Shown here: in pieces, positions 8,733 through 64,000 of the stretch
How positions within the stretch are numbered: position 1 is the first letter of the stretch
How the letters are laid out: each line of letters opens with the position of its first letter
Assembly: GCA_949130485.1 (NCBI GenBank)
Contig: OX422185.1
Coordinates: forward strand, 15,565,011-15,629,010
DNA from: Agelas oroides
Lineage: Eukaryota; Porifera; Demospongiae; Agelasida; Agelasidae
Direction: 5' to 3'
Length of the DNA: 64,000 nucleotides
Notes under the pieces: model-generated
Told to the model about the DNA's origin: nothing
What the model saw: the letters and a program-made list of their open reading frames with translations, nothing else
The model's database searches: none
Translations under genes and position numbers: made by a program

Positions 8733-10308
8733 CTAATTGAAATGAATACCAGGAATGGAAAGTGGCTTTGCAAAAAGCGATACCTCTGGAGCTGTATTTT
8801 CTGAACCAGCCACATCACTTTTCTTGTCTGCAGACTCTGGAATTGGCTCAAGCTTCTGCTTCTTCTGCGTGTTCAGAACAGCTGATGAAAGTTCTCTGAA
8901 TTTCTCACTTGTTCTCTTGTATGCTCGGACCCCATCTACAGAGCGATGCCCTGTCTTGCTCATAATGGTAGCCTCATCAAGCTGAGCATCATACGTGCGA
9001 GTAGCAGCTGTGACACAGAGGGAGTGATTGGTGAAATATCCTTCTATCCCAGCACTTTTCATCAACCTAGGTACAACTTCAGCCAATTTGCCATGCCCAA
9101 CAGGAGAAGCTTTGTACCAGCAATCCTTTTTCAGCTTTGCAAGAGGAGTAAGGTAGAAGGAATGAGCTGGGCGATTCTTGGGACAAAGTGAATTATGCAA
9201 TTTGTACAGACTTATCAAACAGCGAGAAGGGTTCTCACAATTAGCGTGGTGTACAACCTCTTTTAGTTTCCGCTGCTGAAGTCCACCTTGATTCGTCTTG
9301 GATGCATCTTCACAATACACAATATATGGTGTCCCTCCAGGAGGTTCCACTAGAGAGTGGGTTCATGTCGTAGACGTCTATGCCCTTCGCCACGAGTGAA
9401 GTAAAACCCTATTAAATACACCATCGTGTCAAGCAAAACGTGCAGTGAGTGGTCACCCAACAACCCTTTTTGCCACAAAATTTCCTCTGTTATTACCTCA
9501 GCTTTCTTCTTATGCACATACTTCCCAGTTGCGTTCAGCCGCTTCAGCTTACCGTCTAATGCATCTCGAAATGGAGCAAAATCACTGCTTTCAAAGAAAT
9601 TGACATCAACTCGATCTGCAGCCCTAAGGGCTCTTTGCAACCCACAACAAATTTGGTGTAAGCTATCAGAGAGTAATGCTTACCACCCACTTTTCTCACA
9701 AACCTTTGTAGCCAATGGTTCACAGCAGGAGTGCTCATCTTGGTGATATCACTGTCCAATCCGAACCCGCAATTTTCAGCACTCAGCGGCTGCTCCAGCC
9801 TGTGAGTAGCCCATTCACGCCAAATGCTTTGAGCCCACTCAGTGTTTTGTAGCGTCTTCTTCGGTACGCATGACTCTTTTATGGCTTGGATATCCTTCTC
9901 GCTTTGAAGTTGACCAAATCGACGTTTGCCCAATGGCTTTACAACCATTGAATTGTCGAGCGGTCCAACGTTGAGTAGATGAGATGCCTCCAGAAACAGC
10001 TCATCCAATTATTGTCCCTCAGTGCAATGGGTCTCGTACTGCTACGATGACTGTTCGTACTGTTACGACGCTGCCATTAGCAGTTCGTCCACTTCGTCCA
10101 CTTCGTCCGACACATGACAATCGGTAGGGTGGCCTCGCTGTTGAACAAGTCCGGCATACTGCTCGGAACCCAGATCGACTGGCTCCCCAAGAAGTTCTTC
10201 CCATCCAATTTGCAGATCGGGATGCGTAATGGCACTGGGGTCAATGTTTGCCAACAGCAACGAGCTAATAACACCGCACTGATCAGTAACAGAACTAGCC
10301 GTTTCCAT
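8733..10308 (-). pseudogene. Crypton-type tyrosine recombinase, decayed
   Basis: Reading leftward from the ATG at 10308 (METASSV), the segments together cover about 520 residues. They include an acidic leader, an N-terminal SAM-like region with EWAQSIWREWATHR, the conserved WQKGLLGDHS block, the box I segment with RGEGHRRLR, and the C-terminal TGHRSVDGVRAYKR block holding the candidate nucleophilic Tyr. Damage is clear. Three in-frame stops lie between 10020 and 10066 and look like CAA/CAG-to-TAA/TAG changes. There is a frameshift near 9676, probably a CT duplication, and another near 9355. The HxxR motif reads HSLC, with Cys codon TGT at 9015-9017. DUF3504 proteins are mostly Crypton-derived; this copy cannot be an active recombinase. 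Confidence 0.82.
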
Positions 10309-33364: not shown

Positions 33365-34102
33365 CCGTAGTGTCCCGCTAATACGCCCCCTTCGAAAATA
33401 CGCCCCCCCCCCCCCTCTTTTCCGCCAAAGTTCCTGCACAGGGTAGTTTGACTCGTTATAACGCCCCCCGGTGAGCGTCTTCTGGAACATCAAAACTACA
33501 CGTGCTTACTATACGTTGCAAGTGCGTTCAGTAAGACTATAGTAGTCGGTGAATCTTTTGTAAGTTTTGTGGCTTTTAGAAAAGCCGGTTAGATGTTCCA
33601 AGTTTTAAGCTGCTAGTTTAGCAAACAGCCCTCTGAAGATGTACACGCACGGAACCGCGAGTCCTTTCCCATCAACTTCAGAACGTCTTCTGTCACCATT
33701 GACGATGCAAGTCATCTCGCTGCCACTCTTGTGCAAGAAATACCAGCAGACTCTGGAAATTTCCCGTGGTACATGACCGACAGTGTTGCCGTTCTTGAGG
33801 ACAGCTACAGCGAAGTCGTCGTGAATGTTATTGACCTCGCGTTGAACTGGCAGCTCTTCTCCGATGTAGGGAGACCACGCAGCTTTGTAAACGTGATGTC
33901 CGCGAACAGTACTCCCGATCCAGAAAGTCATCGCCATAGTTAGTTGGAAGTGTCCTAATTGCGTACATAGCACTTGCGTAAAATCTTTTGGGGGGGGGCT
34001 TATAGTCGAGACTAATTGCATCCTCGAATATAAGCCCCCCCCCCCCCACTTTAGGCGGGATGTAGTGTACAAAATGGGGGGGCGTATTAACGGGACACTA
34101 GG
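33365..34102. mobile_element. HIRAN-carrying TA-flanked element, copy B
   Basis: Same termini and layout as copy A, 738 bp, flanked by TA at 33363-33364 and 34103-34104. The surrounding repeat also occurs at about 34925-35130 without the insertion: there AAGCAGGAAATAGTCCCC runs through the point where this copy interrupts AAGCAGCAAATA. This gives an empty-site comparison supporting TA duplication. Confidence 0.88.
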
Positions 34103-34141
34103 TATTCCCCACCCCCGGCTTCCCCCTTCCCACACTAGCAT
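33605..34141 (-). CDS. HIRAN-like domain frame, longest copy
   Basis: This uninterrupted 178-codon frame contains a recognisable HIRAN-like core: TVRGHHVYKAAW, then GEELPVQRE, then DDFAVAVLKNGNTVGHVPRE, and a following segment with SEMTCIVNGDRRRSEVDGKG. Its first ~37 codons read through the element's right terminus and C run, so the annotated start is probably not natural. HIRAN domains bind single-stranded DNA ends in HLTF-type proteins. Here no helicase or nuclease partner is present, so the likely interpretation is a captured host exon carried by a non-autonomous transposon. Whether it is translated is unknown. Copies A and C share nearly the same sequence. Confidence 0.5.
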   Translation of the reverse strand: MLVWEGGSRGWGIPSVPLIRPPILYTTSRLKWGGGGLYSRMQLVSTISPPPKDFTQVLCTQLGHFQLTMAMTFWIGSTVRGHHVYKAAWSPYIGEELPVQREVNNIHDDFAVAVLKNGNTVGHVPREISRVCWYFLHKSGSEMTCIVNGDRRRSEVDGKGLAVPCVYIFRGLFAKLAA

Positions 34142-35789
34142 GGTCTACAGGAAAACATGATCTGACTGACCAATGGATTGGCTAACCGTGTGCATCCCAG
34201 TCATCATGGCCATAGCAAGCGGTCGGGCTGGTCGGGTTTTGGCCTGACCACATTTACACAGACCCAACTTGCACATGCACATTTTGAATTATGTAGATCG
34301 AAGATAGCAGCTATACAAGCTGTGTCACTCTGGAAATGCTACCCAAGGCATCACTGTATCTGGATTTGCGCCATGTACAGCAATTTCAGTGCACTCAGGT
34401 GCCATTTCTTCTACGAAGCCAAAGACGTGACACGTCACCTACCGCTGGCCAACACGAGTTGTCTGGCTGTACACGCCGCTAAGTTTAAACGTGGAATCTC
34501 CATGTGGTCATCCATAGTGAATCAGAATCTAGCCGCTTGCCAAGAAACATGGGTAAGAAGCTCTCCTAGCACAAAATATTTGCTGTGGGAGCATATCCGC
34601 AGACACCTTGCTCACTAAAGTGACCTTACGCACGCAATCTGCAATCTGCTACCCCGCAGTGTAGACGTGTAGCAACTCTCAAAATTCTTGCCAAGGATTT
34701 TACAGGTATTTTTTGGATAAAAATGGCCTCAGAAGCGTTTTCCGTGCGGCTAATTTATAAAATTACTCTGGGGGAGCCAGACCTCCCTAGCTGCTGCGTG
34801 CTTACAGTCAGGACTTTGGCCACACAACCTCTAAATAGCTTGCTACGGCCCTGATCATGTGTGTGCCAAAGACATAATTATGTAACTCACAATACTGTAA
34901 CATAACACATGCTATGGCAAACCAAGCTAGCTATTTGCTCTCCTCAGTATTGGGCATCCACAGGTACACAACATGTCCAAGCAGGAAATAGTCCCCCTCC
35001 TTATGGAGTTACCGCCTCTTTGCCTGGTGTCACCTGTTTGTACCTACTTGAAGTGAGCCTGAGCATGTCCCAAACTAGCATTGTCTACAGGAAAATGTGC
35101 CAATCAGCCAATCATGTCCATCCCAGTCATGTGTGCGCCATATGTGATGGCTCTCCTCTTGTGATAGCTGAAAGTCATCAATGTTTGTTGGGTGAGACGC
35201 CAGGGGAAACACGAGCATGAAATAACCAGGGGAAAAACTGTTCACGAACTCAAAGTCGGAAAAACTGTTTGTGGGCTCAAAGTTGCCAGTGGAAAAAGCG
35301 TTCACCGACTTGAAGTCACAACTGTGGGACCCCGTGGTTGAAACCCAGCCAATCACCAGCTGCATGGTTGAATCACACCTGCTGAACCAGTTGCCAGCTG
35401 TTCCACAACTAAAAGTGCAGACACCGACAATCAATACTTGCAACTTGCCGCTGATAAGTCTCTAGCCAGGTTTCTCTCTGATGACGCTTGACCATTACAT
35501 AGCAGCTACTGCATGTGGATGTCATTATTTACTGTGGGGCAGTATGGTCTAAGTCAGATGGAGCCCTTACATGAAGGCTCTATCCTATACTAAAGAAAAG
35601 TATAGTGCAAACAGTAATCTCCATACCATGAGCACACAACTATGTTGTAGTAGCATAGAGAGCCCACCTGCAATAGTGCCCACCCCCAACATTTAGCCCA
35701 ATTTCCTGCAACTCTTGGGCTTAGCCTTGTGTGGTCAGACCAGCAGAGTTTTGAGAAGTGCTATGCATATCTGAGGTAATATAACTTTC
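34105..35789. other. Repeat DNA without confident gene
   Basis: Includes the empty-site paralogue of copy B's target (about 34925-35130), a fragment of the ATGGCCTCAGAAGC family (about 34690-34810) and a small local repetition of GTGGAAAAAGCGTTCACCGA-like units near 35230-35310. Open frames such as 34178-34618 show no recognisable domain. Confidence 0.5.
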
Positions 35790-42523: not shown

Positions 42524-43446
42524 TACCTGGTCCCCCACATCCGTGACTTCTCGTCATTGCAAGGCGCCACCATCTTCTCCAAACTGGACCTTGTGTGTGC
42601 GTACCACCAAATTCCAGTTGCCCCCAAAGATGTCCCCAAGACCACCGTCACAACCCTATTTGGCCTGTTCGAGTTTGCGCGAATGCCTTTCGGCCTCAGG
42701 AATGCTGCACAGACATTCCAACAGTTTATGGACCAAGTTCTCCGTGCCACTCCAGAACAACACCTCCAGGACTTACGGACTATTTTCGAAAGACTCCACA
42801 ACCACGGCATTGTCATCAACCCCAACAAGTGTCTCTTCGGTGTCCGTGAACTTGATTTTCTCTGTCATCACACTACCAACATGGTATCATTCCTCTACCT
42901 GTGAAAGTTCAAGCCATTCGTGACTTTCCTCAACCCCAGTATCAGCGCCAGTTGTGCCAGTTTATTGGACTTGTGAACTTTTATCATCGATTTCTCCCTC
43001 ACTGTGCCGACCTGATGCAACCCCTCCATGCTCTTCTCACCGCTTCCAAGCCAAAATCTCAGACACTCGCCTGGAATGATGCCGCCTTGGCCGCCTTCAA
43101 GGCCACAAAGGAAGCCCTAGTCAATGCCTCAACCTCTCATACCCCAAAGCTGATGACCCCATGTCTCATGACTGATACATCTAACACTGCTGTGGAGCAG
43201 TATGTCAACGGTATCTGGCGTCCCATCTCTTTTTTCTCCAGGAAGATGACGCCCACTGAGACCCGCTACAGCACCTTCAACAGGGAATTGCTGGCTGTGT
43301 ATCTTGCGATCAAACACTTCCGCCATTTCCTTGAAGGCAGACACTTTCATGTCCTCACTGATCACAAGCCACTCACATTTGCACTAAACACCCACTCCAA
43401 TCGTGACTCTCCTCGTCAAGCTCGTCAGCTGGACTACATATCTTAA
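42524..43446 (+). pseudogene. Reverse transcriptase and RNase H remnant
   Basis: Sequence beginning HIRDFSSLQ continues into [15 protein letters not shown] and the [13 protein letters not shown] block of gypsy reverse transcriptase. Between VLRAT and PEQHLQ about twenty codons are missing, removing the YxDD catalytic motif. A frame change at about 42895 leads to IGLVNFYHRFLPHC and the RNase H segment with LMTDTS, RELLAVYLAIKHF and TDHKPLTF. A TAA at 43444 follows LDYIS, where a Gln codon is expected in relatives (CAA to TAA). The deleted active site makes the enzyme dead. Confidence 0.88.
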
Positions 43447-45464: not shown

Positions 45465-46635
45465 TCATGTAGATGCACAAGAACTACAAGTAAATGGTTC
45501 TTTTTTCCTAAATACAGAGGCAGCAATGTTCTCACAAGTCTGATGAAACCAGTCATTGCACTTAACGCACTGAGCCATCTTCTTACGATCTTGCGGCATC
45601 CTGCATGAGCAGTACACTTTGATTTTTTGCTCCTTAACCACCTCTTCTTCTTCAATCCTGCGGTCATGTAACTCCCATCCAGGAAATGGTTTCATCTTTC
45701 CTTGTTCAAAAGATTTTAACAGATTAGCCCGCATTAGCTTCTGGTCCCAGCGGATGGAGTTGGGTGACTCTCCATTGCACAAGGAGGTGGCGCTAGCTAT
45801 AGCAAAGAGGGCACAGTCACTGCTACCTTCCTGCAACTGGGAACTGGTGACTCGGATGGTGAAGTAAGGTGCCCGGCAATGGAGCAAAGCAGCTATCTGC
45901 TTGATGATGTGGGGGGATACCTTTCCGCACAAGCTGTCATATATGTTGATGGTATTTGGTGGGCATCCAATTGTCGAAACACAAATCCAATGCTTGTTTG
46001 AGTCATTCAATATCTGAATACCTTCACCCACCATAATATTACACCTTCCTGCCTCAGCTAGTGTTGGCAACTGGAGTCCATCCACTTTAGGAAATCCATC
46101 CACCTTAGGGATCTCTTTTTTTAGGAGCATCTGTGCAGCTGCAATATGTCTGTCTGACAGCCAATCACCCGTTTCAATCAACTGTTTGTCCTCAGCCCTC
46201 AGAAATAGCTGTGGTAGCCACTTCCCATCATCGACATCACTTTCATCTTCTGATGATACGGTCATTACTTTCCCCTCGCTATCTGACAAAGATGCTTTGC
46301 TCTCGCCGTGCCCCCTCTTGACTCTCTTTCTTTGGGGCTGATCGGTACCACTGTCATCAGCTGACTCAGAGCAGTTGTTGCATTTACACCCCCCATGGCA
46401 TTTGGAAGAACAGATAGCTCCCTTCTTTCGACAAATGCAGCGCTTACTTGTGCACCCCGTCTTACAGTTACAGCAGCTAGACTGAAACTCATTCTGGGGG
46501 TTGAGAAGATGAGCTGCCTCTCGCAAAGACAGCACTCGTTCCTTCCGCCAGCCTTTCACCGTCAGGCCCAGGTCTCCCTGAAAGGGTTCAAGGTCCCCTT
46601 CTCCATAGCAAGTCTTGAGGACACCATGCTCACAT
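45465..46635 (-). CDS. CXC domain, Ulp1-type protease and PHD finger, likely last exon
   Basis: The frame, with an internal ATG at 46559, encodes about 390 residues. A cysteine-rich CXC-like region has CKTGCTSKRCICRKKGAICS. A protease region of the C48/Ulp1 type shows candidate His in NKHWICVS, Asp in NIYDSL, Gln in SSQLQEG and Cys in SSDCALFA. The C-terminal PHD finger has CSCRMPQD, CVKCNDWFHQTC and CSSC. Joining to the integrase tail in frame requires an acceptor ending at 46636, but that site reads CAC where CAG is expected. It may therefore be a separate protein or a damaged splice. SUMO-protease activity is inferred from the family, not shown. Confidence 0.75.
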
Positions 46636-46715
46636 GTGCAAATAAAGAAGAGTGTAGGAAGAAGAAATTGATTAGACTAAAGTCTAAATACTAATCTATG
46701 TATTTTGTGAAATAC

Positions 46716-48603
46716 CTTAGCCTGTAAAGATGGAATTGTGACCCCAGGCACTCAACCACAATGCATGGTAGTCTGTGAAAGTCAGTAGATGTCCGATCAA
46801 TCCGGGGAATCCTAACGCTGACAAAGTCACCCTCTGAGAAGGTCAAGACCTTCTTTCGTTTTGCCTTGCAATATTTCAACTTCATTCGTTCTACATTCAG
46901 GCGATACTGTTTATCAGCTGCTTCACGTAGTTGGCGGTGCTTTTCTGTTGTAGCCAGGAAATCCGGACTCTTGCATCGAGTCTTATCCGGACTCTTGCCT
47001 CGCTTCTCACCATCTAGACTCTTGTCCTGATTCTCATCCTGATCCCCATCTCGGTTCTCATCATCACTGTCCTGACTCTCATCCCGACTCTTGTCCTGAT
47101 TCTCATCCTGATCCCCATCTTGGTTCTCATCATCACTGTCCTGACTCTCATCCCGACTCTTGTCTCTGTTCTCATCATCACTGTCCTGACTCTCATCCCG
47201 ACTCTTGTCTCTGTCTCTGTTCTCATCATCACTGTCCTGGTTCTCATCCCAACTCTTGTCTCTGTTCTCATCATCACTGTCCTGGTTCTTATCCCGACTC
47301 TTGTCTCGGTTCTCATCATCACTGTCCTGTTCCCGACTCTTGTCATTCACCTCATAGGGAGTAGTCTTCATGACACCATGCACAGTGGTATTGAGCTGAT
47401 CTGTAGGCAGTTGAATGAGGAAGCAAAACACATTGATAATGGTTTAGAGAACTTGCTATTCCCAGTTTACTAGAGAATCCCCTCCAGAAAACTTACATTG
47501 AATGAATGGTAACCACTCAGTCCAGGTTGGCTGGTCATCACCCACATACTCATGCAGGCGAGCTCCAAGGAGCTTTTCAACCATGTGGTTGCCCTGCTCA
47601 ACAAGGCCTTGGCATTTAGGGTTCCTTGGCCTGCCATTAACAATTGTGATTTGGCCTGGCCACTCCTTGACAATGCTATGAATGATTTCATTCACAAATT
47701 CCCGGCCATTATCTGAGTGGAGAATCCGGGGAGTTCCAAGGACGGCGAATACGTGGTTCTGGAGGTTGAGGGCAACCTCTGCAGCGGACTTTCTCATCAG
47801 AGCGAACAATATATGAAATTTGGCCCAGTGATCCATGTAGTGACCAATCCACTTGAATGTGCCATCAGGCCTATGTCGCATATCAATGAGATCAATCTGT
47901 CCCCTGCACATGAAGCCAGATGCTACAATTGGCTTCAGCGGAGCCCGGGTATTCTGAGGCTTGCGGGCATGGCACACTACACAGAGCTGTATGAAATGGT
48001 CAATTGCTGCCCGGGGCACACACTCATACACCTTCGACACCTACATTGGATAAGCAATAGAGGAGTAATGCAGGCAGGAATATCTAAATAGGAAAACTGA
48101 AATACCTCTTCAACAGTTTTCTTGCTCCCAACGTGTCCTTTCTCCCTGCAGTGGATCTCCTTGATGATGTCAAAGAACTCATCAACAAAGGCAACTCTTC
48201 TCCAACTGGCAAGGATGGTTGGATCATTTGGGTTCTGCAGGGGAGAGACAAATTATTTGTAGTGCATGCGGCCCTTCAATAAAGACATGCATATAACAGT
48301 ACATTTCTTACTACTAGCTGAAAATAAGTACACATAGTAGCTGACCTGCTTTTTCGACGGAAGGCACAACACATCCTTCAAGCCGAGAGGGGAGTAGTTG
48401 ATCAGACTAAACCCGCATTGCTTGACCCAAAACTTGAACTTGGAGCTATACGCTTCAGCCACGGGATGATTCCGTAGAAGTCGGATGATCTTCTGCCCCT
48501 TCTCTCTCGCTGTGGTCTTGCTCGTTTGGCAGCCATTTTCTCCGTATCGCTCGGCACAAAACCTCTCGAAAACCTTCCATTGCTCATCAATACACAGCAT
48601 CAT
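46716..48603 (-). CDS. Ginger-like integrase (transposase), exons 1-4
   Basis: Four exons with GT-AG borders: 48603-48346, 48234-48106, 48040-47497 and 47400-46716. They join in frame (phases 0, 0, 1, 2). The N-terminal exon (MMLCIDEQWKVFERF) is followed by a zinc-binding region with IHCREKGHVG and, in exon 3, LCVVCHARKP. The integrase core has candidate D (QIDLIDMRH), D (HSDNGREF) and E (LVEQGNHMVEKLL) residues, all present. After TTPYEV an acidic-basic repeat segment (DENRDKSRDES type, about 47340-46985) interrupts the tail, which then ends with GDFVSVRIPRIDR and FHLYRLR. I found no stops inside these exons, so the core could be functional. Exon limits are predictions. Confidence 0.8.
46985..47340 (-). 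repeat. Acidic-basic amino-acid repeat in the integrase hinge
   Basis: Tandem 33- to 36-bp units encode variations on DSDDENRDKSRDES with embedded GDQDENQ variants, running about 110 residues. The length varies by whole codons, keeping the frame open. Confidence 0.85.
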
Positions 48604-59700: not shown

Positions 59701-61060
59701 ACGGAAGTCCCATGCAGATCTTTCATTTCTTTGAGGTAGCATAGTCAGTCAGTCTTGCACACATCTTTGGGCCATGTATAGACGTCTGGGTCGTATCTGT
59801 ACTATAGGTACGTGCACTAAGCATGCAGTGATTGAAGAAAGTGCTACAGTTCGACTCAAGGTGGGTTGGGGGGGGGGGGGGTTGGTCCCTCTGGATCCGC
59901 CCCTGATGAGAACAGCTATTTTCCATCTTCCATAGCTCAACATCAACACATGAAACCAGCTAGGAACAAGCTGCAGTGCATACAATTTGCAGAACTAGCT
60001 CACTTCCCTCAGCTCTGCAATGACTTAGCAATGTACACGATAAATCATGTAGATCACTGATGTAACCACTTCATAAGCATAAGGCATGTGCCCGTGTGCC
60101 TCACACATATAAATTGGAGCTATATCACGCACAATCGTGTCACAACTAATACATGATTATACCACAGAAAGTTGTAAAATTAAGTTTCATACAATATAAA
60201 CTTACATTGTATACTAGCTTGTAGTTACGCTGATAACCGCAATAAACATTCACATAGGAGAATGTAACACCAACACATGTTAGCCATGGGAGCTTACATT
60301 AACCAACCCATGTCCTACTCTTGTCCTATGGGGCTCCATCCCCAGAATTGGGTGACGTAATATCTACTATATTATGTATAGTTGTATGTGTAAGATTTAT
60401 GGTTGCAATAATCATCACTTGTGCATTTGCATGAAACAAGATGTACCAATCAGATGTATGACACATGGTGCTAAGCTACGATTTTTCTTCCCATCACCAT
60501 GGTAGCAGGTTTTTCTTTACTCATTGTTCAGACACTTGGAGGGCCTAGGAGCTCTCATTAGTCAGTTAAGGAGGACAGCGACAATGGTTACTAAGTACAA
60601 TTAAACCTTTTTCACATATAGTAAGTCCCTGGATACTATGCTATTACTATTACTCAATGCTCATCTGTAGTTTTGAAACAACTTTGTCTCACCACAGATA
60701 TCACTTCTCCATCAGTCTGTAAAAAAAAGCAAGAAAAGTAATATCATAGAGGTTCTGCACTGCAAAGTTTTGTGGTGGGACCACAGGAAATTGGGCATCT
60801 GCTCCTCTCGGGGAACTGGAATTGTAATCACCAGAGGCAAAGTCAGTTCACTATCTCTGTATCTAAAAATTACAAAAAATTTTCCATGACATTTCTGTTT
60901 GACAGTCCCCACTTACATTTTGAAGGCAAAAAATAATGATACCATGACTGTTTTCCTCAATCAGCTTCTGGCTAACAAGAGATGGTCTAGTTCAGGACAC
61001 TGATCATGATGTTATTGTTGAAAGTCTTTATGCTACAATCACTCTAAAGTTAGTGCCTTC
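56782..61060. other. No confident gene; scattered repeats
   Basis: Frames at 57399-57677, 58470-58739 and 58764-58991 have protein-like stretches but no family I recognise. Diverged copies of the GGAAGTTGTA repeat lie at 59082-59165 and 60163-60220. A long G run (about 59868-59882) precedes GGATCCGCCCCTG, a hAT-type terminus. Confidence 0.45.
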
Positions 61061-61065
61061 GTCCC

Positions 61066-61843
61066 ATGCAGTTGGTGCAAGACATCATGATTTACAACCT
61101 TGATGTGTGCCATGCGGTTGTTGAGTGCACACCAGCACCAAAAGCAACGAAGGACATGAGAAAAAGGAAAATAGAACATCGCAGATTACAACTATGTCAC
61201 AGACCAGGATGGGTCACAGTGGCCTGTCTGGCTGATCCTCTTACTGTGTGCATACTAGTGGTGCTGATTATGATCCACAACTGGAGCAATCTACAGCAGT
61301 GGAGCAGAAACAAAGATGCTCACCATCGAAATATCTTCTGTGCCATGCTCCACTTCAACAAGGTTAATGAAACCTTGATGAGATGCAATCCCACATTAGT
61401 TGTATCAGAGAAACACTGCAGTAACACAGCAAGAAATGTGTATGCGTATCTTCAAACAGCTGTGGCGATCTTTTACTACTGGCAGGCCTTGCAGGTGTCA
61501 GCTGTTGTGACAGCTATGATCCTACTACTCTCGGGAGACATAGAACTCAACCCAGGTCCCCTTACAGTTGATGATTTGAAGGCAGTTCGTACTGCTCTTT
61601 GGGATGCTTGTGCGAAATGGATGGACATTGGTATTGAGCTTGACATGAAAGTAGCACGTTTGGAGACTATCAACCATAATAAACAAGGTGAAGCAGGCTC
61701 ATGTCTAACAGCAATGCTGACTGATTGGTTAAAACAAACGACTCCCCAACCAACATGGGAAGCACTGGTTGATGCACTGAAAAGTCCAGTGGTTGGATAT
61801 GCACATCTGGCTGACGCTATACAGAGAAAGTATTGCAACAAAG
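61066..61843 (+). CDS. 2A peptide plus death-domain exon, NLR-like or adaptor protein
   Basis: The open frame runs about 260 codons to a probable splice donor (AAG|GTAAGC at 61844), so it is one exon of a longer gene. A possible acceptor (CCCATGCAG) ends at 61069, so the first ATG at 61066 may not be used. Residues about 46-67 and 131-155 are hydrophobic and membrane-like. They are followed at residues 157-165 by GDIELNPGP, a canonical 2A motif (DxExNPGP) at which ribosomes skip the Gly-Pro bond, between 61557 and 61558. Residues about 167-256 form a death domain with ALWDACAKWMDIG, CLTAMLTDWL and PTWEALVDALK. In sea urchin and other invertebrate NLR-type receptors, N-terminal 2A segments act as alternative signal sequences. 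Any NACHT, repeat or kinase partner is outside this exon. Confidence 0.82.
61534..61560 (+). other. 2A ribosome-skipping motif
   Basis: Encodes GDIELNPGP preceded by AMILLLS. All residues of the DxExNPGP consensus are present, with Gly-Pro at 61555-61560. Confidence 0.9.
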
Positions 61844-64000
61844 GTAAGCAAATTAACCTTAAGTCGCCTTTGTTTTGACCATTTCTGGCATAACTTTGTG
61901 CTCTGATCCTGCCATCTAATAGTAGACCTGACAGTTGATGTTTATTTAGTGACTTACCAATACCAGAAATTAGAAGGCAGAAATCATATTGCTTACAAGT
62001 TAGGGGTAATGCCAGCTCTTTGTAATCAAACCATTAATGTTAGCATGCCATTCATGTTAGCAAAAATGATGCAAGTTATTTGCTAATATATTTAAAAGGA
62101 CGACCATATACATCAAGGTTTTAGTGTTCAAGTGTAGTAGTTAGTAATGAACTGCATGCTAAAGTTGCAAGAAGATTTACTGAGCGAAAACAAGTGCATG
62201 TATAGGGATGGAACCCACAAAAACCAACCAAACAAGATAGGAATGACACAAGAATACTTCACACCATCTCTACATCTTGTGCCATCTCACCAACCACGCC
62301 CTGTGTTTGTTACTTGTGTGCACAAGAGAATTGTCTTGCTGTGGAAGGCCGTGCGGTGGGTGTGTAGTGCATCTTGTTGTGCATGGAGAGTAATGTTGTG
62401 GATGGCTGCAACTCTGTTGCTACTGAACATTGCAGAAATGGTTTGTCTTGTATGCAAAAGGTGGTGAGTCCATGGGCACTCTTGTAGCATGTTGGAGTGC
62501 GAGATATGTTGTGAACTTTTATTGCTGTTGAGCATGGCAGATGTACTATAAGCTCCCCAAAATATGCCCCGCCTTTTTGCACACTACTTTGAAGCAAAAC
62601 GTGGAGAGGGAGCGTTTGCTCGGTTTTTCTAGCTGCAGTGACTTTCAGGGAAAATGGCCAGCTGTTTCGTTAACTTAACAGATTTCTGATCATACCAAAA
62701 GGTAGATGTATTGCTGTCATTATTCTAACACAATGCATGCTTATAAAATATTAGGCTGTGACCTTAAAATAGTTTGGATTTATCGTAAATTCCTAAAATT
62801 TAATTTCTTAAAATTAGATCTTACCTTGCATAAGAATCACAATACATGCTTTCCCTATCTAAATGAGTGCTAGTTGGGTTTTCACAGAATTGTGTACAGA
62901 ATTTATGCTGCACTTGAAAAAGTTGTAAACCATGCAAAATCACTCAGAATATATTCAGCACTATTTTCCCACTATTCCTAAGGAACTTGAGCACAACCTA
63001 CGGTGGCTTGTTTATATATCTCACCTTTGAATTAGTTACTCTCCACAACTAAAGCAATGTGTGTCCATTTGCACTATACTTCCATAAAATTGTAACATTC
63101 ACATAGCTTGTCACGAATAATATCCAGACAAGTTACAAAGCTGAAAATACACCTGCCACAAAGCAATGCTCACTCAGGCCGATTAATGTCAATTGTAAGT
63201 GATACCAATGGCAAGACTACCAAGACAATTGTGAGACTTCAAGGCAATGCAATTGCTACCCCCGCCCTGTACCAACTACTTTGTTTGTAGTCAATCATGC
63301 AAGCTCATAGTGTACTGACTTACTAAAAGTAGTTGGTAACACCAAGAAAGCATCCTTGCCTTCGTATACCTAGTGAATAACCTCCATTTTTAGGGGTTGA
63401 AGGTGAATTTAACCGGCAATAGATGGCTACAAGTCTCCAACTTTCAATGATATAGAAATAGATTGGACATACAGTATTAATTTTACAGATTCCTAGGCTC
63501 CCCTGGGAATGGTTGCACATGCACAAGCAGTCGATATCAGGCCATTTTTTCTCCTTCCACACTGCCAGGAAAAAGGGCTAGCTAAAGTGGGAAAATTTAT
63601 ACTATTGTTTGATTTATAGTCTTACTTAACTAGTCTTAACTTTGGTTATACTTCTTCAGGTTCTTCTTCTAAAATTCAGAGGGCTGCAAGTCGGCCTGAT
63701 GCCTTCTGTGGTAGCCAGGTACTGTGAAAGCCCATTCTTGAGAGTTTCCAACATTTTAGGGAGTCTACAGCAACAGAGTCTGGGTACATCTTTTGGACTG
63801 TTAGCTGGAAAAAGAACCATACAGTTTCAAATGTAGCAAGAGGTATCTGCTGTTCACAGCTGCAGTTAGCAAGCTAATCACCTACTAGTTCATAAGTTGC
63901 ACTTGGCCAAAAATCATCCCTCCATATGACTACAAGTTCCAATTCCAGGCAGGCCTTCCAGCTATCATCAAGTTGCTGAAGGAGCTTGCTATGAGCGTCA
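61844..64000. other. Probable intron and downstream sequence; one weak exon candidate
   Basis: No strong coding signal. A candidate exon at 63660-63718 has a pyrimidine-rich acceptor (TTATACTTCTTCAG), a donor (CCAG|GTACTG) and a phase that would join the death-domain exon (SKIQRAASRPDAF). It could easily be chance. The frame at 62147-62467 is rich in hydrophobic residues near its end but is not recognisable. Confidence 0.3.

Follow-up and report, generated by a model that had tools for sequence, protein, structure and literature searches.

We identified a 2A (StopGo) peptide, under selection and probably active, in a death-domain gene of the sponge Agelas oroides, where it appears to end an N-terminal module that is conserved and of membrane type; the gene probably encodes an NLR with a NACHT domain, and we put the probability of this reading at about 0.7. 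At least 138 modules with an in-frame canonical 2A occur in this one animal genome, many of them close before death domains.

A 2A motif between hydrophobic segments and a death domain

The window is the whole stretch of DNA that was analysed (64,000 nucleotides), and genome searches were run over the 259-Mb assembly that contains it (G000). The open frame at 61066-61843 (+) encodes AVVTAMILLLSGDIELNPGPLTVDDL / VSAVVTAMILLLSGDIELNPGPLTVDDLKAVR (stretches of its translation) and lies within a stop-to-stop frame of 61054-61878. Its predicted parts are listed below, where type C denotes the module family of this exon (the window exon plus six full-length paralogues).

61072..61843, +, predicted exon with 2A module and death domain; AG kept in 7/7 copies, donor GTAAGC after 61843 (sequence-predicted)
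61087..61089, +, most likely start codon, ATG; kept in 6/7 type-C copies, CTG in L037
61219..61275, +, hydrophobic segment 1, predicted signal anchor; residues 52-70 when numbered from 61066, 19-residue Kyte-Doolittle score 2.64
61432..61536, +, second hydrophobic region, running up to 2A; residues 123-157, peak 1.81 at 141-159, dN/dS 0.21
61537..61560, +, 2A/StopGo octapeptide DIELNPG/P; chain predicted to break after Gly (61555-61557), before Pro (61558-61560)
61561..61833, +, death domain; residues 166-256, PF00531 at E 8e-4 here and E 8e-6 in L033
61844..61849, +, predicted splice donor GTAAGC after a phase-1 exon end (AAAG/GTAAGC after 61843)

About 150 residues precede the motif, and the two hydrophobic regions that the first-pass annotation had seen in them were recovered as peaks at residues 52-70 and 141-159. 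The latter peak overlaps two residues of the motif, and transmembrane assignments were made from hydropathy alone. DIELNPGP has the 2A core D(V/I)ExNPGP and follows LLLSG directly. In a by-eye comparison with the upstream classes given in the available passages of PMC12846837, where the L-rich class ends in (A/S/C)G before Asp, the ILLLSG before DIE is a permissive context of this kind. The octapeptide is the sole motif match in the window, with none in 100 dinucleotide-preserving shuffles, and the D[IVM]ExNPGP codon pattern has 285 exact matches in the assembly against 0 for a reversed control pattern; on these counts a chance motif was rejected. The PF00531 (Death) match of residues 183-252 is weak (E 8e-4, 19.9 bits, under the 22.6-bit cut-off); two paralogues were scanned, of which L033 clears the cut-off at 26.3 bits and L037 narrowly misses it at 21.9 bits. 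A PDB sequence search returned a single weak match (E 0.81). These results bear out the earlier description of a canonical 2A with a long hydrophobic segment on one side and a death domain on the other.

The exon borders were revised from the alignment of the seven type-C copies. The ATG at 61066 is ATA in L035-L037, whereas none of the seven has lost the AG at 61070-61071, which would suit a splice acceptor, so 61066 is probably not the start codon and the exon start given there by the first-pass annotation is probably 6 nt upstream of the true one. The most likely start is the ATG at 61087, for which L037 has CTG; the type B modules L018 and L020 (see below) have an ATG at a similar distance after a possible AG. 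With a start at 61087 the released upstream product would be 157 residues long. At the other end, GTAAG after the exon is kept in 7/7 copies.

A block 5' of the exon, 61030-61053 (ATGCTACAATCACTCTAAAGTTAG), is identical in six of the seven copies and has two changes in L037, although the median coding dS is ~0.6; it is perhaps a branch point, promoter or 5' UTR.

Elsewhere the window holds a DUF3504/phage-integrase-type tyrosine recombinase fragment at 8733-9362 (-), which we take to be possibly a Crypton-like element. Retroelement remains were seen at 42856-43443 (+), with a reverse transcriptase RNase H, and at 45465-48040 (-), with a PHD finger and an rve integrase match under its cut-off. 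A HIRAN domain frame (PF08797, E 3e-7) lies at 33605-34144 (-).

Type-C paralogues keep the motif under purifying selection

A search with the window exon protein (P0001) recovered six more full-length exons from the same contig, all of them open and 58-98% identical. The same seven copies were recovered with the motif-free part of the query, whose ten weak type-C matches with stops (E 0.19-0.47) were left uncounted. D[IV]ExNPGP and the death domain are retained together in 7/7, answering for these copies the question of a conserved pair that had been left to a homologue search. The 98% copy (L032) sits 231 kb from the window exon.

For the upstream module the median dN/dS over 20/21 pairs is 0.36 (0.15-0.52), indicating that it is translated and under purifying selection; the suggestion that this segment is more than a bare signal is thus upheld. 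Between the window module and its closest copy dN/dS is 0.15, on few changes (dS 0.07). By segment, in four of the seven copies (window, L033, L035 and L037, the near-identical ones being dropped), dN/dS is 0.43 for the N-tail, 0.41 for hydrophobic segment 1, 0.49 for the loop, 0.21 for hydrophobic segment 2 and 0.49 for the death domain. The octapeptide is the most constrained segment at 0.08, a rough ratio because it covers only eight codons and its dS of 1.56 is near saturation; its codons changed while the peptide hardly did. Within the type-C module (window 61087-61536) dS is much lower in the 5' part, 0.33-0.34 as against 1.2-1.6 for segment 2 plus 2A, as though gene conversion had made the copies alike there.

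Two further module families end in the same motif

Follow-up patterns listed 279 of the 285 motif places, of which 137 (about half) adjoin modules of type A, B or C; few of the remainder were read. Thirty motif loci were read: 17 belong to a family beginning MPIS... (type A) and seven to one beginning MGIDLATW... (type B), both with the same plan as type C, and six have shorter or truncated upstream parts. Aligned module lengths are 139-157 residues in type A (n=15) and 124-125 in type B (n=7).

Motif-free queries, ending just before the motif, recovered 64 type A and 73 type B copies matching up to the module end. The tally started from 68 and 85 rows, with the four and 12 that stop short of the module end omitted; some of those retained lack sequence at the 5' side, and in five the matched stretch contains stops. 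After 61/64 type A and 68/73 type B copies there is a listed motif in frame. The others comprise two type A copies that read as canonical (DLETNPGP and DIERNPGP), three copies with single core changes (DIKTNPGP, DIEKKPGP and DVARNPGP), two broken type B copies (L092 and L093) and one type B copy (C1:4419943) that carries a stop and has its motif out of frame. DxExNPGP is therefore in frame in 63/64 type A, 68/73 type B and 7/7 type C modules, that is 138/144. The in-frame tally used the 279 listed places, and the A/B row tally and the associations with death-domain and NACHT exons given below used 232/285.

Median dN/dS is 0.35 in type B (21/21 pairs, 0.21-0.57; seven aligned sequences) and 0.48 in type A (105/105 pairs, 0.25-1.25; 15 aligned sequences), some type A pairs showing no constraint, as their values reach 1.25. 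The type-mean hydrophobicity of segment 1 is reached by 1.2%, 1.8% and 0.2% of shuffles in types A, B and C, and from the end of this segment to the motif there are 83-101, 49-53 and 84-87 residues, respectively. In each of the three types the N-tail has, on average, a positive net charge. The loop is more positive than the N-tail in type B and about equal to it in type C, which makes the orientation uncertain in these two types.

In the 15 type A modules read, a pyrimidine-rich AG stands directly before the start (ATG in 14, ATT in L011), and 12 of them have a donor-like GT within two codons of NPGP; the type A module thus looks like a separate exon with predicted borders. In the window exon, L001, L038, L040 and L045 the module continues in one frame into the death domain.

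Other motif places were also noted. The type-C exons L037, L035 and L036 each have another same-strand 2A motif 6-9 kb upstream (G000:C3:14326515, 16777957 and 10115756 (-)), and the sequence read from these, L081, has a short basic leader of at most 46 residues followed by a Leu run and DIETNPGP. DVETNPGP motifs cluster at G000:C8:9317203-10136476 and C7:2989302-3317006; L083, read from these clusters, is another two-hydrophobic-segment module, with 'WRARIG' in common with type B. In L048 (G000:C22:4549380-4552688, -) a single open frame runs from DIQTNPGP through a death domain to a NACHT-like Walker motif (by eye), a candidate single-exon 2A-NLR with a rare core (E to Q at p14). Relatives of module B were absent from genome_contigs and relatives of P0001 from viral_contigs, which says little as neither collection is meant for animals.

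Association with death domains and NACHT exons

The best 147 of 780 P0001 matches include 82 death-domain matches aligned only beyond NPG, these being the domains most like the window's own. A listed motif lies within 3 kb upstream on the same strand in 46 of the 82, and the controls gave 0 on the opposite strand and 0 downstream. Over all of the best 147 of 780 the same count gives 75. Among the best 150 of 870 PF00531 matches a listed motif was found upstream in five within 3 kb, nine within 5 kb and 13 within 10 kb (opposite strand 0, 0 and 0; downstream 0, 0 and 1). The idea that 2A stands on all death-domain genes was rejected on the five within 3 kb; 2A instead marks a subset of death-domain families. 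For the best 105 of 314 NACHT exons, a listed motif was present upstream, at up to 15 kb, in 16 (opposite strand 0, downstream 2), a less strong association than that with death domains and one that does not show a constant pairing of 2A and NACHT.

About 4 kb downstream of the window exon, on the same strand (G000:C3:15630132-15632084), lies a NACHT domain with a NOD2-type winged helix (L061:1122-3074; PF05729 at E 7e-22 and PF17779 at E 1e-5 in Pfam), in a frame that terminates at a stop. From its phase-1 end the window exon could be spliced in frame to any of 11 candidate acceptors, for a product of 778-877 residues. This joinable neighbour suggests that the window gene is probably NLR-type, through a predicted splice link to NACHT. 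The free death-domain protein expected earlier would thus probably be an NLR-type receptor and more than a bare death domain. A 59-nt candidate for exon 2 (63661-63719, by eye) was rejected because it breaks the frame into the NACHT exon unless a further exon intervenes.

The body behind the module varies among copies. L032 has no match to the L061 NACHT in 15860400-15863600 (3.2 kb at the corresponding distance), and behind L033 and L034 there is another death exon (L062 and L063, Pfam-confirmed for L063).

Proposed mechanism and alternatives

From these features we infer the skipping, the membrane insertion, the fates of the products and the splice to NACHT, as follows. The ribosome would make ~150 residues of the module before reaching 2A, and hydrophobic segment 1 would leave the tunnel ahead of it and could dock the ribosome at the ER. 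The ribosome tunnel holds 30-40 residues (PMC2978324, available passages), and segment 1 is more than 80 residues from the motif in type C, so it should be outside the ribosome when 2A acts, most clearly in types A and C. At NPG/P the Gly-Pro bond would mostly fail to form. The module, with 2A as its tail, would then come free as a membrane protein with two hydrophobic segments, the receptor would continue as a separate cytosolic protein starting with Pro, and a read-through fraction would remain fused and membrane-tethered. Since segment 1 would be available to the targeting machinery before 2A, three products are expected: the membrane-type module, the Pro-starting receptor and the fused receptor.

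One alternative gives the released module a smaller role. In S. purpuratus a 26-residue NLR leader was shown to give dual targeting (Roulston 2016, PMC4981915, available part), and the gene context here is similar (DEATH, probable NACHT), so the sponge leader might likewise be a long signal or anchor whose released form has no job, 2A only splitting the receptor between the cytosol and a secretory or membrane pool. This is possible, but we do not favour it: the module is five to six times longer than the urchin leader and has a constrained N-tail and loop (dN/dS 0.43 and 0.49) and a second hydrophobic stretch, which together exceed the needs of a signal. A more elaborate idea, which we regard as doubtful, is by analogy a translocon-gated recoding switch in which ER docking sets the receptor's place of action. 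It draws on a report, in the available passages of PMC2978324, that translocation of certain upstream sequences inhibits 2A in artificial constructs. With segment 1 docked, segment 2 would meet the translocon and suppress 2A, leaving a membrane-tethered receptor; with docking failed or saturated (stress, infection), 2A would fire to give a cytosolic receptor and a free two-segment membrane protein. If this were true, the state of the ER would set where an immune receptor works, and such a natural use of 2A inhibition would be new.

The window copy may be a silent or decaying duplicate within a functional family, which seems unlikely; a 98% copy lies 231 kb away and some type B members are broken (L092 and L093, and C1:4419943 with its stop and out-of-frame motif), but the window frame is open, the motif intact and the donor kept, and dN/dS against the closest copy is 0.15, albeit from a small number of changes (dS 0.07). 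Transmembrane segments have been described in sponge NLRs that are putatively membrane-bound (PMC12909245, available part), and on that model the leader would be a plain two-pass anchor, with no skipping in the animal and NPGP kept for another reason. We consider this quite improbable, as the residues required for StopGo are in frame in 138/144 modules and no segment is as constrained as the octapeptide (dN/dS 0.08). Least probable is a 2A captured from a retrotransposon and carried without function. Two of five additional motif places read, L082 and L085, do resemble non-LTR retrotransposon frames with a PHD-like finger (by eye), but the module sequence, exon borders and selection look host-gene-like, the death-domain association (46/82) has zero in both controls, and the window exon, unlike L082 and L085, does not read like an element frame. 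In L082 (G000:C3:15822300-15823700) a PHD-like finger follows NPGP and leads into an endonuclease-like start; in L085 (G000:C1:10533400-10534700) such a finger after NPGP stands in a non-LTR-like frame (both by eye).

Comparison with known 2A systems

Odon et al. are said to have described 2A in non-LTR retrotransposons in 2013. The likeness is an NPGP in an animal genome, where such elements apparently also occur (L082 and L085), but the window copy precedes a death domain and not a finger/endonuclease frame. With picornaviral 2A/StopGo (FMDV 2A, L-rich class; PMC12846837, available passages) the exon shares the D[V/I]ExNPG/P core and the Leu-rich run ending in SG; it differs in being a cellular gene with a predicted 2A activity and no viral-type polyprotein. 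According to the same passages, Rao et al. searched the proteomes of viruses and cells for StopGo with a profile, and their set may include sequences of this kind.

The putative membrane-bound NLRs of Dysidea avara (PMC12909245) are likewise NLR genes with predicted transmembrane segments. NPGP is absent from the available part of that text, and the 2A receptors would, in contrast, be largely released. No report of 2A in sponge NLRs was found in open-access full texts, a scope outside which preprints and most subscription journals fall. The many copies provide a natural system for asking why a receptor should be cut from its membrane leader during translation, and they suggest that among the sponge NLRs described as membrane-bound some may in fact be released. 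A single mRNA could give rise to a membrane protein as well as a free immune receptor.

The closest system is the S. purpuratus NLR 2A, known to us from the available part of PMC4981915, where a 2A 'within the N-terminal region' is noted for further urchin NLRs as well. In the urchin 2A is N-terminal to DEATH/NACHT receptors, and the sponge arrangement is probably similar, with DEATH in the 2A exon and NACHT joined through a predicted splice; in both, a hydrophobic run leads into 2A and the invertebrate family is large. SpNLR2A, as described there, has a leader of 26 residues in which signal and 2A are the same peptide; the leader in the window is longer, with ~150 residues before the motif, and in this genome the modules have 124-157 residues with two hydrophobic stretches and a basic N-tail and loop, segment 1 ends 49-101 residues before the motif, and a donor-like GT stands close after 2A in most type A and B copies read. 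The window leader is probably, on its sequence, an N-terminal NLR 2A leader like that of the sea urchin, differing by a 125-157-residue module with two hydrophobic segments.
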